This document shows positions 1 through 4,796 of a stretch of 64,000 bases of DNA, in pieces. The translations under genes were made by a program, and so were the position numbers. The notes beneath the pieces were generated by a model. It was not told where the DNA came from, did no database searches, and was given only the letters and a program-made list of their open reading frames with translations. Numbering within the stretch: the first letter of the stretch is position 1; every line of letters begins with the position of its first letter. Location: the NCBI RefSeq assembly GCF_001589285.1, contig NZ_JEMA01000264.1, forward strand, positions 1-64,000, read 5' to 3'. The stretch is from Sorangium cellulosum (lineage in GTDB: Bacteria; Myxococcota_A; Polyangia; Polyangiales; Polyangiaceae).

Positions 1-243
1 CGGGAAGTGGCTGCCCCGCGCGGGGGCCGGCGCGTGCTGCGGGGGCGGGAGCGTGCTGCCGCCGCGGTTCGAAGGCGGCGCCGGCGGCAGGCAGCTGCTG
101 TTGCTGCGCGGCGGGTGCGGCGCCGGCGGCAGGCAGCTGCTGTTGCTGCGCGGCGGGCTCGGATCCGGCGAGCTCCCTCGCGACGGCACGGGGCTCATCG
201 GTGCCTTCTTGTGCGCGTCCTTGTCGGAGGGTGATCGGCTCAT
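1..243 (-). CDS. Partial gene: N-terminus of a Pro/Ser-rich protein (runs off the left edge)
   Basis: An open frame starts at the ATG whose complement is 241-243 and runs without a stop for 81 codons to the window edge. It begins MSRSPSDKDAHKKAPMSPVP and continues as Pro/Ser-rich sequence with a 14-residue unit (core SNSSCLPPAP) present twice. A GGAG lies just upstream of the ATG, a little close for an ideal ribosome-binding site. Codon use is GC3-rich like the neighbours. Such Pro-rich low-complexity N-termini are common linkers in myxobacterial surface or signalling proteins, but no domain is visible in this part, so no function is assigned. The other strand also has short open frames here; I prefer minus because its composition is that of a plausible protein. 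Confidence 0.5.
   Translation of the reverse strand, partial: MSRSPSDKDAHKKAPMSPVPSRGSSPDPSPPRSNSSCLPPAPHPPRSNSSCLPPAPPSNRGGSTLPPPQHAPAPARGSHFP
77..157. repeat. Two-copy 42-bp tandem repeat
   Basis: Positions 77-118 and 119-157 are near-identical (period 42, a multiple of 3). The repeat preserves the minus-strand frame, giving a duplicated 14-residue Pro/Ser segment in the partial gene at the left edge. In-frame periodicity supports coding on the minus strand. Confidence 0.75.
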
Positions 244-1001
244 AGCTCCGGCGATTCTACGCGTCCGGGCGTCCGGGCGACGACGGATGACACCGCTGCT
301 TCACTTTTTATCGCACCCCGACGCCCGATCCACGGCGGGTGGATTTCGTCGGCCGGCGTTCCTGCGACCCCGAGAGCGTCCAGGCCGTCCTGGTGAACGG
401 TTTCAGTGAGCCGGCATCCCGGACGAGAGACTGTATCTCCCGCCAGGAACCAGCCCGTTTGTCGCATCGCGTGATCCGGGGGCGCGCCGGCTACCCGACA
501 TGCGCGGCGAAGCCCCGCTGCCCGAGGGCGATTGTCGAGGACAAATGAAACACATTTTTTGAAGGCGATCGTCACTCGGCCTCCCGAGGGCCTCGCCGGC
601 GGGCGCCTCGCGGCGCTCGTGGTGGTGTCCGAGGCGCCCGTCGTGAGGGGCCGGCTGACGGCGGCCACGAGAGGGACAGCCGCGGCCTCGCCAGGCGACG
701 TGGCCCACATGCGGACCCACTCCAGCGCTCCGGAGCGGCGGCCCGTCGTCGCGCGTGTGGGCAGTCGAGCGCGGCCGTGGCAGCCGCGCGCCGCCCCGGC
801 GAGCTCATCCCACCCGGCGCGCCGGAAGCTGCGGCGGATCGCGCGCCGGGCGCACGACAAGCATGCTTGTCTCCGGCTTCCCCACCTGATCATCGGGCGG
901 CGCACATGCGCGCGCTGGAGGAAAGGCAGCTCGCCAAATTAATCCGATCGCGCCCGCGCTTCGTGGAGTAGCATCGCTCAACTCGTCGACGAAGGGGCAA
1001 C
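244..1001. other. Intergenic region without a recognisable gene
   Basis: About 760 bases between the divergent Pro-rich gene and speD. Several short open frames exist on both strands, but none has a convincing ribosome-binding site or recognisable protein composition. Presumably it holds the two divergent promoters. No RNA gene or clear palindrome was seen. Confidence 0.5.
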
Positions 1002-1901
1002 ATGCACAAGGCGCGCAAGAACCTCACCCATTTCACGATGGACGGCTTTCACGGCTTCCGGAGCCGTTTTGATGACGTGAAGCTGGCTCAAGAGCTTCTG
1101 GAGGAGGTGCCCGGCGTGCTCCGGCTGAAGCCGGTGATGCCTCCGTTCATCCTCCCCTACTACAACGGCGTGGTGGCCGAGGACTGCGGCATCAGCGCCT
1201 TCGTGCTGCTGCTCGGCGGCCACCTCACCATCCACACCTTCAGCTTCCGCGAGTGCTTCTTCGCCGATCTCGTGTACCCGGGGGCGTTCGATTCGCAGCG
1301 CGTCCAGATGATGCTCCAGACGACGCTGCCGTGCCGCAGCGTGTTCACGCAGACGGTCGATCGCGGCGAGGGGGGCGACCTGCAGGAGCGCAGGGGGCAC
1401 GAGGTGGTGAGCCCGGACGCCGACTTCGGCCCTCACCTCTTCCTGCAGTTCAGCCCGTACCGCGGGCCGACCTCGCTCGACACGCTCTTCGACATCTTCG
1501 ACAGCCTGCCCGCGAAGATCGGGATGACCCCGATCATGCGCCCCTTCGTGGTGAAGACGGCGACGCGCGATGGGACCCCGGTGATCAGCGCCATGGTGAT
1601 GATCGCGGAGTCGCACATCACGCTGCACATCTTCCCCGACAGCGAAGAGGCGTTCTTCGATCTCTTCAGCTGCAAGTTCTTCGACGTGGAGCCGGTCGTG
1701 CGCGTGCTCGCGGAGCAGTTCGGCGGCAACGTGACCGACCAGGTGCTCGTCCCGCGCGGCCAGCGCTACCTGCAGCTCCGGACCGAGCGCCCGCACGTGA
1801 TGAGCCACGTGAACCAGTGGCTCGCGGCCTCGCACCCCGGCGTCTACGCGCGCATGCCGGGCGACGGGGGCCCGCTCGGGCCGAAGAGCTCGAAGGGCTG
1901 A
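1002..1901 (+). CDS. speD: S-adenosylmethionine decarboxylase-like protein with duplicated SpeD domain
   Basis: Members of this pyruvoyl-enzyme family decarboxylate S-adenosylmethionine to provide aminopropyl groups for spermidine synthesis. The 299-residue product carries two SpeD-like halves. The C-terminal half (about 157-265) has the canonical self-cleavage motif ESHITLH: Glu203-Ser204 is the predicted processing site, His209 lies at +5 and Cys224 at +20 from the serine, matching the Ser/His/Cys spacing of class 1B bacterial enzymes such as that of Thermotoga. The N-terminal half (about 24-112) aligns to it (GGHLTIH...FFADL), but Gly73 replaces the serine and Pro93 the cysteine, so it cannot be processed. 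Bacterial SpeD is usually one domain of about 120-130 residues acting as a dimer, so this is about twice the normal length. The start follows GAAGGGG. No spermidine synthase gene is adjacent. Some SpeD homologues have changed substrate (arginine or ornithine), so the substrate is inferred. Confidence 0.85.
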   Translation: MHKARKNLTHFTMDGFHGFRSRFDDVKLAQELLEEVPGVLRLKPVMPPFILPYYNGVVAEDCGISAFVLLLGGHLTIHTFSFRECFFADLVYPGAFDSQRVQMMLQTTLPCRSVFTQTVDRGEGGDLQERRGHEVVSPDADFGPHLFLQFSPYRGPTSLDTLFDIFDSLPAKIGMTPIMRPFVVKTATRDGTPVISAMVMIAESHITLHIFPDSEEAFFDLFSCKFFDVEPVVRVLAEQFGGNVTDQVLVPRGQRYLQLRTERPHVMSHVNQWLAASHPGVYARMPGDGGPLGPKSSKG

Positions 1902-1910
1902 GGTCGAGGC

Positions 1911-1993
1911 GCGCCGCCGCCGGCGGCGCGGCCTTCACGAACGCCGAGACAGAAGGGCCGAGCTCGCGCGCGGCGCCGCCGGCGGCGCCGCGC
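1911..1993. terminator. Two GC-rich hairpins between convergent genes
   Basis: Positions 1911-1929 form an 8-bp stem (GCGCCGCC/GGCGGCGC) with a 3-base loop. Positions 1968-1993 are a perfect 26-bp palindrome ending directly at the stop codon of the minus-strand phosphoesterase. The location between convergent stops suggests bidirectional termination, although neither hairpin has a T-tract. Confidence 0.45.
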
Positions 1994-2893
1994 TCACAGG
2001 TACCTGTAGTTCGACCTCGTGTACTCGCCCAGCCACGGGGCGTCGAGGAGCGCAAAGGAGCTCTCCTCGGGCCCGGCCCATCGGAGGATCCCGATGCACC
2101 CTGGGTTGAGCCGGTGCGGCTTCAGAAAGCTGACGGCGTTGAGCTGGTAGCTCTGCGTGTCGCCGGTCGCGGCGAGCGGCTGTCCCGGCTCGTGGTAATG
2201 CCCGGCGAAATGATACCTCGGCCGGAGATCGCGGAGCAGATCGAGCACGTCGCGTGAGCCGCCGTCGTCATAGCGGGGGTGGATGGCGGCGGCGGCGCCG
2301 TGCGGCGGCTCGTGCGAGAGGAGCACGTCGATGCGCTCCCCGCGGGAGCGAAGCTTGCGGACCTCGGCCGCTGTGTAGTGCTCCGAGACGGGATCCCGGC
2401 CGGGCCGCCCGCCGTCGGAGATGCCGCCCAGCCCGCCGATCGTGATCCGGTGCGGGCCGCGGCCGAAGGTGAACCGGCCGCCGTTCGGGAGATAGAGGAT
2501 CTTCTCGCGCGCGTCGACAGGCACCGGCGCGTCGGACCCGGCGCCCGCCTCGTCGAGGAACTCGAAGTCTTCGTGATTGCCCCTGATGAACACCGTATCA
2601 GCGGCTATCCGTCGATCCGCCGGCGCGTCGGGCCCGAAGAACGCGTCGGGCTCCGGGCCGCCCTCGTGATAGACGGCGAACCCCAGCTCGTCGGGGTCGC
2701 TCTCCGCGAACCGCTTCGTGGCGCGGTCGAGCCGGAACGGGGGAGGGAACGCGCCGAGATCGCCGACCTGGAGGATCAGATCGAGCGCGCGGCCGGTCTC
2801 CCGCTGCCAGCGCCCGAGCAGCCGATAGGCGAGCGTGAGGTGGCCGTGAACATCGCCGAGCACGGCGATCTCGAGGGGGGCGTCCGGCGTCAT
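1994..2893 (-). CDS. Calcineurin-like metallophosphoesterase
   Basis: Member of the binuclear-metal phosphoesterase superfamily, which hydrolyses phosphomonoesters or diesters. All signature blocks are visible in order: GDVHGH (residues 13-18, metal ligands D and H), QVGDLG, RGNHEDF, LSHEPPHG and GHYHEPG near residue 230. The product is about 299 residues with no signal peptide or membrane segment, so it is likely cytoplasmic. I chose the ATG at 2893, which gives MTPDAPLEIAVLGDVHGH; an in-frame ATG lies five codons upstream and the frame is open to 2974, and no start has a strong ribosome-binding site. Its substrate cannot be told from sequence; it could be a nucleotidase, a cyclic-nucleotide or dinucleotide phosphatase, or an orphan protein phosphatase. 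Confidence 0.85.
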   Translation of the reverse strand: MTPDAPLEIAVLGDVHGHLTLAYRLLGRWQRETGRALDLILQVGDLGAFPPPFRLDRATKRFAESDPDELGFAVYHEGGPEPDAFFGPDAPADRRIAADTVFIRGNHEDFEFLDEAGAGSDAPVPVDAREKILYLPNGGRFTFGRGPHRITIGGLGGISDGGRPGRDPVSEHYTAAEVRKLRSRGERIDVLLSHEPPHGAAAAIHPRYDDGGSRDVLDLLRDLRPRYHFAGHYHEPGQPLAATGDTQSYQLNAVSFLKPHRLNPGCIGILRWAGPEESSFALLDAPWLGEYTRSNYRYL

Positions 2894-3302
2894 GAGGGCG
2901 CGGAGCATAGCGCCGCGTGCGCCGGCCGGCATCGGGGACTCCCGCATCGAGCCGGTCGAGCAGCAGCACTGCATTGCTGTTCGTCGACGCGCACCGCGAT
3001 TGCCCGCGCGCGGCGGGCGCGGACTCGATGGAGCGATCGGTGCGCTCCTGTGCGCTCATCTGCCGACACGAGCGCCTGTGCGACGTCCGTCCATGTCGCC
3101 AGGAGACCCGGTTGTGATGGCTTGAAATCGACGCGGTCCCGCGCGGTGCGGTCAGCGGCGTCGAGGTGATGGATGAGGGGCGGAAGAGCGCGTGTTCCTC
3201 TTGCGGAGTCAATGGATGAGGCGTACTGATCTATGACGCGAGTTTCGGCTGGAGCTGACAGACACACCGGCTCGGGCCTCTTCAAGAAGGAGTAGCAGAG
3301 GT
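2894..3302. other. Intergenic region, probable divergent promoters
   Basis: About 410 bases between the divergent phosphoesterase and kinase genes. No gene, RNA or strong repeat is visible. A GAAGGAG about 10 bases before the kinase start is its likely ribosome-binding site. Confidence 0.5.
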
Positions 3303-4796
3303 ATGCCCCTGCACACGGGACAGATGGTGACCCCTGCGCTGCGGCTCGTTCGCATCCTGCGGCGGGGCGGGATGGGGAGCATCTGGGTCGCCGATCGCCT
3401 GCCGCTCAAATCGCAGGTGGCCGTCAAGTTCATGTCGCCCGAGCTCGCGGACGACGCGGGGTACGTGGAGCGGTTCCGGCGGGAGGCGGTCGCCGCGGCC
3501 CAGATCACGAGCCCGCACGTCACGCAGGTCCTCGATCATGGGCTGACCGCCGAGGGCATGCCGTACATCGCGATGGAGCTGCTCCGCGGCGAGGACCTCA
3601 GGGCCCGCATCCGGCGCCTTGGGAGGCTGCCGCTCGGCGAGGTGGCCCGCATCGTGGCGCAGACGGCGAAGGCGCTCGGGCAGGCGCACCGGCTCGGCAT
3701 CGTCCACCGGGACATCAAGCCGGACAACCTGTTCCTGACCGAGGTGGACGGCGAGACCTTCGTCAAGGTGCTCGACTTCGGTATCGCCCGGCGAGCCCGG
3801 GACATGCGCGTCACCTCGACGGGGAGCGTCGTCGGGACGCCGCTCTACATGAGCCCGGAGCAGCTCACCTGCTCGAAGGATCTCGATCTCCGCGCGGACC
3901 TCTGGGCGCTCGGCGTCGTCGCCTACCACGCGATCACCGGGCGAGTCCCGTTCTTCGCGGAGACGATCGTCGGGCTCACGCTCACCGTGCACGCCGGCCA
4001 GTTCACGCCGCCGAGCGCGCTCCGGCCCGAGGCGCCGCCGGCGCTCGACGACTGGATGCGGCGGGCGTTGCAGCTCGACCCGAACGCGCGCTTCGGGTCC
4101 GCCAGGGAGATGGCCGAGGCGCTGGAGCGGGCGCTCTCGTCGCGCCGGAGGAGCGCCGGGCCGCAGGGCACGGCGACCCAGGACACGGGCGCGGAGGCCC
4201 CGGTGCAGGCGCCTGTCGCGAGCGCGCAGGACACAGCGGTCACCCTGCGCCACCCCGCGCCGGCGCGGCTGCCGATGCCGCTCGCGGACACCGATCCGTG
4301 CGAGGGCGACGCCCCCGAGCGCACGACGACGGTGATGATGACGACCTCGAGCCGCAAGAAGAAGCGGCCTGCGGCGCGGATCGCCACGGTCGCCGCCCTC
4401 GGCGCCATGCTCGCCGGCGCCGGCGTGTACATGGCGGCCCGGCACGTCGCGACAAGCACCGAAGGCGCCGCGCTCGCCGCCGACAGCGCCGCGCTCGCCG
4501 CCGTCGCCGTCGCCACCCGCAGCGCCGGCTTGCCGGGCACCGCCGAGGCGACGCTCCTCGCCAGCGTCGTGGACGCGCCGCGGCCGCTGCTCGCGCCGGG
4601 GCCCCCGGAGCCGGCCGAGATCCCCGCGACACGGCCCGATCCGGCGCCGTCGACCGAGAAGGCGCGGCCGGCCCCGAAGAAGCCGACAGCGCGCCCCACG
4701 CGCTCCCCCGGGCGGACCAAGCCCGCCCCGTCGGCCGGAAGGGTCACCCGGCGCATCAAGCCCTTTCCTCGTCACGACATCGCCATGCACCGGTGA
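3303..4796 (+). CDS. Membrane-anchored eukaryote-like Ser/Thr protein kinase
   Basis: A Hanks-type kinase domain occupies about residues 14-280: glycine-rich loop GGMGSIW, Lys42 in VAVK, Glu61 in helix C, catalytic loop HRDIKPDN (Asp137), DFG (Asp158-Gly160) and the SPEQ activation-segment end. All catalytic residues are present, so it should be active. A Pro/Ala-rich linker leads to one transmembrane segment (about 358-378). The final 115 residues are Ala/Pro/Lys-rich low complexity, predicted to lie outside the membrane, with no PASTA or other sensor domain. Myxobacteria carry large families of such kinases in developmental and stress signalling. No phosphatase or FHA partner is adjacent. 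The start follows GAAGGAG. Confidence 0.93.
   Translation: MPLHTGQMVTPALRLVRILRRGGMGSIWVADRLPLKSQVAVKFMSPELADDAGYVERFRREAVAAAQITSPHVTQVLDHGLTAEGMPYIAMELLRGEDLRARIRRLGRLPLGEVARIVAQTAKALGQAHRLGIVHRDIKPDNLFLTEVDGETFVKVLDFGIARRARDMRVTSTGSVVGTPLYMSPEQLTCSKDLDLRADLWALGVVAYHAITGRVPFFAETIVGLTLTVHAGQFTPPSALRPEAPPALDDWMRRALQLDPNARFGSAREMAEALERALSSRRRSAGPQGTATQDTGAEAPVQAPVASAQDTAVTLRHPAPARLPMPLADTDPCEGDAPERTTTVMMTTSSRKKKRPAARIATVAALGAMLAGAGVYMAARHVATSTEGAALAADSAALAAVAVATRSAGLPGTAEATLLASVVDAPRPLLAPGPPEPAEIPATRPDPAPSTEKARPAPKKPTARPTRSPGRTKPAPSAGRVTRRIKPFPRHDIAMHR

Follow-up and report, generated by a model that had tools for sequence, protein, structure and literature searches.

Near one end of the Sorangium cellulosum DNA analyzed here (the window, i.e., the whole stretch of 64,000 nucleotides), one reading frame appears to contain the SpeD fold twice, with a complete set of catalytic residues in only one copy. 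The question is whether this is a real duplication, what its incomplete half does, and whether the protein is an intermediate on the way to eukaryotic AdoMet decarboxylase (AdoMetDC), as the preliminary description of this DNA had suggested, or something else.

A SpeD domain duplicated within one polypeptide

The gene occupies positions 1002..1901 of the plus strand (stop included), starts with an ATG that has a purine-rich GAAGGGG close upstream, and encodes a tandem SpeD-fold protein of 299 aa. The host genome is an 11.9 Mb, Sorangium-like Myxococcota genome, with S. cellulosum So0157-2 (97% identity) and So ceGT47 (94%) as named relatives. An Rfam scan of window positions 1-4000 found no RNA element upstream of the gene. 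A 285-aa open frame lying antisense to it (window 978..1835, minus strand) is probably a high-GC shadow frame.

PF02675 (AdoMet_dc) was the only Pfam family matched by the protein up to an E-value of 1, and no class 2 AdoMetDC profile of Pfam was matched up to the same value. The match of the whole protein (1.5e-22; 80.4 bits, cut-off 25) falls in two stretches, and each half also matches separately above the curated cut-off: the N-terminal half (N-half; residues 8-125, 1023..1376, plus strand) with 6.8e-7 and the pyruvoyl-type C-terminal half (C-half; residues 140-259, 1419..1778, plus strand) with 8.5e-13. In NCBIfam, the AdoMetDC model TIGR03330 was the sole match, at 55.6 bits and thus under its equivalog cut-off of 75.65. 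Local alignment of the two halves gave a score of 79 (shuffled mean 28 ± 5), which was reached by none of 2000 shuffles, and hhalign aligned the N-half family to the C-half family with an E-value of 8.6e-14 and a probability of 98%. The proposed duplication of SpeD within one polypeptide is therefore well founded. The profile matches in both halves, the shuffles and the 27 homologous sequences rule out an artefact or chance similarity, and two separate genes are ruled out by a single open frame that spans both halves in all aligned homologues (L008 being cut by a contig end).

Distribution and conservation of the tandem family

Besides the window protein, 26 further homologues with the same two-domain layout were found, giving 27 sequences. 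The carriers include a Bacillota MAG (L007) and two further Sorangium; the other Myxococcota are mainly of family f23, and f50, f53 and f54 contribute one member each. Of the 377 genomes in the phylum sample, 24 carry the protein. No plasmid-borne tandem homologue was found in PLSDB, and a profile scan of viral contigs together with a phage search found single-domain relatives only and no tandem form. The order of the halves is constant across the family, an N-half devoid of the pyruvoyl Ser being followed by a C-half that bears it.

Invariant residues in all 27 sequences are S65, G72, G73, H74, H78, T79, F80, S81, R83 and E84 in the N-half, and S196, E203, S204, H205, H209 and C224 in the C-half. 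The invariant N-half loop has the form HTFSxRE, where canonical SpeD has HTWPE. Among Sorangium, dN/dS (simple Nei-Gojobori counts with few substitutions) was far below 1 for both halves and lowest for the N-half, with 0.015-0.043 compared to 0.15-0.21 for the C-half, which rules out a pseudogene or decaying N-half. The N-half is the more conserved half, under the strongest purifying selection, and is not dead weight.

Active-site residues of the two halves

The C-half has all residues expected of a pyruvoyl-forming SpeD, each present in 27 of 27 sequences: Ser196 (1587..1589) at the position of Thermotoga maritima Ser55, Glu203-Ser204 (1608..1613) as the predicted self-cleavage site and pyruvoyl precursor, His209 (1626..1628) at the position of His68, and Cys224 (1671..1673) at that of Cys83, all on the plus strand. 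Motif spacings are the same as in T. maritima SpeD (8 residues for Ser55-Ser63, 5 for Ser63-His68 and 20 for Ser63-Cys83), so the canonical spacing described for Ser204, His209 and Cys224 is confirmed. The T. maritima reference sequence used for these spacings agrees in its core with PDB 1tlu.

The N-half lacks the pyruvoyl-forming set. As had been described, Gly73 (1218..1220; Gly in 27/27) stands at the position of the pyruvoyl serine and Pro93 (1278..1280; Pro in 25, Arg in one and Cys in one of the 27) at that of the catalytic cysteine. Two further residues, which the preliminary description did not mention, are retained in every sequence: Ser65 (1194..1196), placed by spacing at the position of T. 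maritima Ser55 and human Ser229, and His78 (1233..1235), at the position of T. maritima His68 and human His243; all four codons are on the plus strand. In human AdoMetDC, Ser229 and His243 are required for pyruvoyl formation at Ser68; the counterpart of Ser229 in T. maritima is Ser55 (PMC3975893). Judged by residue numbers, Ser68 of the human enzyme belongs to the N-terminal half, and Ser229 and His243 belong to the C-terminal one. A study of Trypanosoma brucei AdoMetDC names the corresponding sheets pyruvoyl and scaffolding (PMC5201418). Ser65 and His78 are thus the two residues of the scaffolding half that have been kept, and, by analogy, the single site at Ser204 probably uses them in trans.

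A conserved Pro after the catalytic His marks bona fide AdoMetDC (Li 2023, PMC10407285). According to our own alignment of the tandem halves to a figure of that study, the N-half has Ser81 at this position in all 27 sequences, and the C-half has Pro in only six of 27, Sorangium included (HIFPD). Judged by this Pro across the family and by a TIGR03330 score under 75.65 bits, the protein is probably not a bona fide class 1b AdoMetDC. Its membership in class 1a (E. coli type) was ruled out, since the layout differs and the relatives have separate class 1a SpeDs.

Predicted structure

Two AlphaFold2 models were obtained, from seven sequences (pLDDT 60.0, pTM 0.62) and from six (pLDDT 65.5, pTM 0.67); their confidence is modest and the two alignments have sequences in common. 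In both, the N-half shows the same order of elements as the C-half. The top VIA-align match was unprocessed human AdoMetDC (1msv/1jl0), with Z 13.2-14.2 over 208-212 residues (Z 13.2, rmsd 4.0-4.1 and 210-212 residues for one model; Z 14.2, rmsd 3.6 and 209 residues for the other). T. maritima SpeD matched the C-half of the models (Z 12.3-12.8), and the T. brucei AdoMetDC/prozyme heterodimer was matched as well. Since the match to the human enzyme spans both halves and recurs in two models, folding as a class-2-like pseudo-dimer is supported at the level of prediction.

Origin and single-domain relatives

In the trees, the N-halves form one clade (100/100) and the C-halves another (99/98) with broadly matching internal branching, which fits a single fusion before the tandem family radiated. 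Canonical SpeDs group together beyond a 100/100 branch, apart from the tandem halves, and the sister grouping of N-half and C-half has support of 84/74, with an AU p of about 0.3 for two alternatives. The final tree was built without long single rows, which had given long-branch warnings. Both halves are more like a non-canonical lineage of single-domain SpeDs than like bona fide SpeD. The Sorangium tandem gene groups with that of G147 and of the Bacillota MAG, and G000 is the only one of the sampled genomes of its family (f1) to have it, which points to horizontal acquisition in Sorangium as likely.

Single-domain relatives occur in Microcystis phage MaAM05 (speH_1), an uncultured 735-kb phage and IMG/VR contigs, and follow the pattern FGPHL..MTPITQPY..FPY.G.VPED.GIT..IIAESHIS.H[ST]F..DIFSCKxFD..RG. 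PYxGxVPEDxGI is common to them and the N-half; with the C-half they have FGPHL, MTPI and DxFSCKxFD in common. MaAM05 speH_1 (WMU93428.1) is the closest single-domain relative of the C-half that was found (39.8% identity) and combines features of both halves, but, unlike the tandem protein, it is a single domain with its own Ser, His and Cys. It lies in a four-gene polyamine cluster, speD-speH_1-speE-speB, within one phage (L176:1986-4764), and this non-canonical SpeD is a good candidate for a single-domain arginine decarboxylase (ADC).

Other SpeD homologues were noted as well. Two single-domain proteins of Myxococcota (L035 in G146 and L036 in G111) seem to stand between the C-half type and canonical SpeD (AESHISVHIFPSDRVVHVDVFSCGAFD). 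Viral contigs (L157, L160-L171) encode a group of phage SpeD homologues of ~155-190 aa with motifs like HTFPE / DVYSCKDFD and with extra residues inserted ahead of the pyruvoyl site; they are possibly substrate-shifted.

Polyamine gene context and candidate substrate

A separate SpeD of class 1a or 1b type was present in 14 of the 19 carriers examined and a SpeE-family gene in all 19; among the five without a second SpeD, four genomes are 58-89% complete and the fifth 90%. Following the reasoning of Li 2023, an additional SpeD in a genome is a candidate for a changed substrate (PMC10407285). The tandem gene occurs in one of 235 SpeA-positive but 23 of 142 SpeA-negative Myxococcota genomes, and, among AguA-family-positive genomes, in 0 of 133 with SpeA and 14 of 42 without it; these are raw genome counts, uncorrected for phylogeny, and, because 20 of the 24 carriers belong to family f23, the avoidance of SpeA rests on about four independent lineages.

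With regard to other decarboxylases, the best PF02784 hits tested in eight carriers were LysA-type (diaminopimelate decarboxylases), and weaker second hits are present in G015, G074, G105 and G118. Of the 18 Myxococcota carriers searched for PF01276, 17 lack it; an aspartate-aminotransferase-fold decarboxylase of this family is present in G219 and in the Bacillota MAG. PvlArgDC was absent from all 24 sampled carriers and present in two named Sorangium genomes. In these two (L153, G377:C1:10361195-10361698; L154, G378:C1:9727842-9728345), the gene for the PvlArgDC-type protein and an agmatinase-family gene lie ~400 bp apart on opposite strands, and SpeA is also present, so that the ADCs appear to be redundant.

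An AguA-family or agmatinase-family match was found in 18 of the 19 carriers examined; among those matches that were checked further, the agmatine deiminases scored below the NCBIfam equivalog cut-off and the agmatinases above it. Neighbors of the tandem gene include argC-argB (L052, G219), argG (L041, G147) and speE-speB (L007, Bacillota MAG). Vampirovibrio SpeD2, a proven ADC, is encoded in a cluster of the same layout as the phage speD-speH_1-speE-speB cluster (PMC10407285). In G118 (L053:5121-7865), the tandem gene is followed by genes for LolA-like, small Cys-containing and membrane spermidine-synthase-like (fused MFS/SpdSyn) proteins.

The combination of a second SpeD with agmatine-using genes and no canonical ADC holds in most relatives, but Sorangium has SpeA, together with agmatinase and a SpeD of its own; the tandem protein there is therefore either redundant or has another role, and the gap-filling argument does not apply to it. 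On another contig of the window's own genome, a short canonical-type SpeD of ~120 aa with an HSWPE motif (L001:1435-2211) adjoins a transporter-like frame. Across the family, co-occurrence and neighbors together favor an arginine decarboxylase, and AdoMet is probably not the substrate. The C-half may thus be called active-type, as it had been, in respect of its pyruvoyl-forming residues, though probably not in the sense of acting on AdoMet.

Comparison with known systems

Eukaryotic class 2 AdoMetDC (human AMD1, potato) also has two SpeD-like halves and one pyruvoyl site, with a fold alignment of ~210 residues. However, its pyruvoyl half is N-terminal and its scaffolding half C-terminal, whereas Ser204 lies in the C-terminal half in 27 of 27 tandem sequences, and the tandem substrate is probably not AdoMet. 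Since both the defining half order and the profile fail, the tandem protein is not a member of class 2.

Fusions of SpeD and SpeDC have been described in bacteria (Desulfotignum phosphitoxidans and Ca. Omnitrophica OLB16); Victivallis vadensis and Desulfobacter latus have versions in which one half is degraded, and the Victivallis one was tested (Li 2023, PMC10407285). These proteins likewise have two SpeD-fold domains in a chain of ~270-320 aa, one of them degraded in some, but their N-terminal half is a working bona fide AdoMetDC and their C-terminal half is SpeDC or degraded. In the tandem protein, the N-terminal half is the dead one, without the pyruvoyl Ser and Cys of a bona fide SpeD that processes itself, and both halves fall outside the canonical SpeD group. 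Dead-half fusions as such were hence already characterized in bacteria, with the C-terminal half dead. Polarity and the lineage of the halves, and probably the substrate too, set the tandem family apart from the known fusions.

SpeDA arginine decarboxylases (Vampirovibrio SpeD2, Ca. Marinimicrobia; PMC10407285) resemble the tandem protein in the SpeD fold, a second genomic SpeD, agmatine-using genes and a non-conserved AdoMetDC proline; the assayed ones are single-domain, whereas here the domain is duplicated in one chain with one site lost. The trypanosome AdoMetDC/prozyme pair shares a dead SpeD-fold partner needed by the active one, but consists of separate chains with allosteric activation. 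Neither Myxococcota nor Sorangium is mentioned in the main text of PMC10407285, Myxococcota are mentioned in the main text of neither of the two closest papers, and a literature search found no relevant paper linking Sorangium to AdoMetDC.

A proposed mechanism and its alternatives

The explanation to which we give somewhat better than even weight is a one-site pyruvoyl arginine decarboxylase of SpeDA type, built as an intramolecular pseudo-dimer in which the N-half donates Ser65 and His78 in trans. It would go back to one duplication and fusion within a non-canonical lineage of single-domain SpeDs, and the N-half would have lost its own pyruvoyl Ser and Cys. The C-half is predicted to self-cleave between Glu203 and Ser204, yielding the pyruvoyl group and two chains (beta, residues 1-203; alpha, residues 204-299). 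The N-half would pack on the C-half in the manner of the C-terminal half of human AdoMetDC, and the one active site may receive from it Ser65, His78 and the invariant HTFSxRE loop. Self-processing, donation in trans and the arginine substrate are what we infer from the conserved residues, the models and the gene context.

An ornithine decarboxylase with SpeDC function, making putrescine directly, is rather unlikely: argC-argB neighbors represent a route to ornithine and SpeDC is the partner in known SpeD fusions, its ornithine decarboxylases having four diagnostic residues, Gln, Thr, Phe and Tyr (PMC10407285), but 18 of the 19 carriers examined also have agmatine-using genes (AguA or agmatinase family), and both in L007 and in the phage cluster speB lies alongside. 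Slightly less credit is given to the idea that, besides donating its Ser and His in trans, the N-half has evolved HTFSxRE as a specificity loop, perhaps suited to a substrate that is neither AdoMet nor arginine nor ornithine, in an independent replay, with reversed order, of the origin of eukaryotic AdoMetDC. It is also unlikely, a little more so, that the protein is a bona fide AdoMet decarboxylase, class-2-like with reversed halves, whose C-half pyruvoyl serves spermidine synthesis. The best fold match to human AdoMetDC, the Pro retained in the Sorangium C-half (HIFPD) and the adjoining speE in L007 speak for it; against it are another SpeD in 14 of 19 carriers, the lack of the marker proline in the N-half (27/27) and in most C-halves (21/27), the TIGR03330 score below cut-off (55.6 < 75.65), and a tree that sets the halves apart from canonical SpeDs.

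A decarboxylase for a different amino acid, with a new substrate specified by the N-half loop, is doubtful to a greater degree; that HTFSxRE is invariant and differs from canonical HTWPE, and that Sorangium has no evident need for another ADC, would agree with it, but neighborhoods and co-occurrence point to polyamine and arginine metabolism. The most improbable reading makes the N-half an allosteric regulator only, prozyme-like and outside the active site. The T. brucei prozyme is indeed a dead AdoMetDC paralogue that activates its partner (PMC5201418), and the models also match that heterodimer, but Ser65 and His78, the active-site contributions of the scaffolding half, are kept in 27 of 27 sequences.

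Significance

The comparison with eukaryotes holds as a parallel, with a real duplication and fusion, one pyruvoyl site lost and a class-2-like pseudo-dimer model. An intermediate is not supported: the dead half is N-terminal here and C-terminal in eukaryotes, the halves resemble a non-canonical SpeD lineage instead of bona fide SpeD, and bacterial SpeD fusions with a dead C-terminal half are already known, one of them tested (PMC10407285). A convergent parallel is the best explanation. The term "dead half" fits only the missing pyruvoyl Ser and Cys, as this more conserved half probably supplies part of the active site.

If the preferred reading is true, the family would add another independent instance in which a duplicated SpeD was reduced to one active site; the inactive half would be the opposite one, and the enzyme would probably decarboxylate arginine and not AdoMet. 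A standing question could then be put to the test, namely why a symmetric homodimer with two sites turns into a fused enzyme with one, and whether giving up one pyruvoyl group leaves the other half free to adjust the active site that both share. A group of Myxococcota that seems to possess agmatine-using genes and to lack any known ADC would, moreover, gain its missing arginine decarboxylase.
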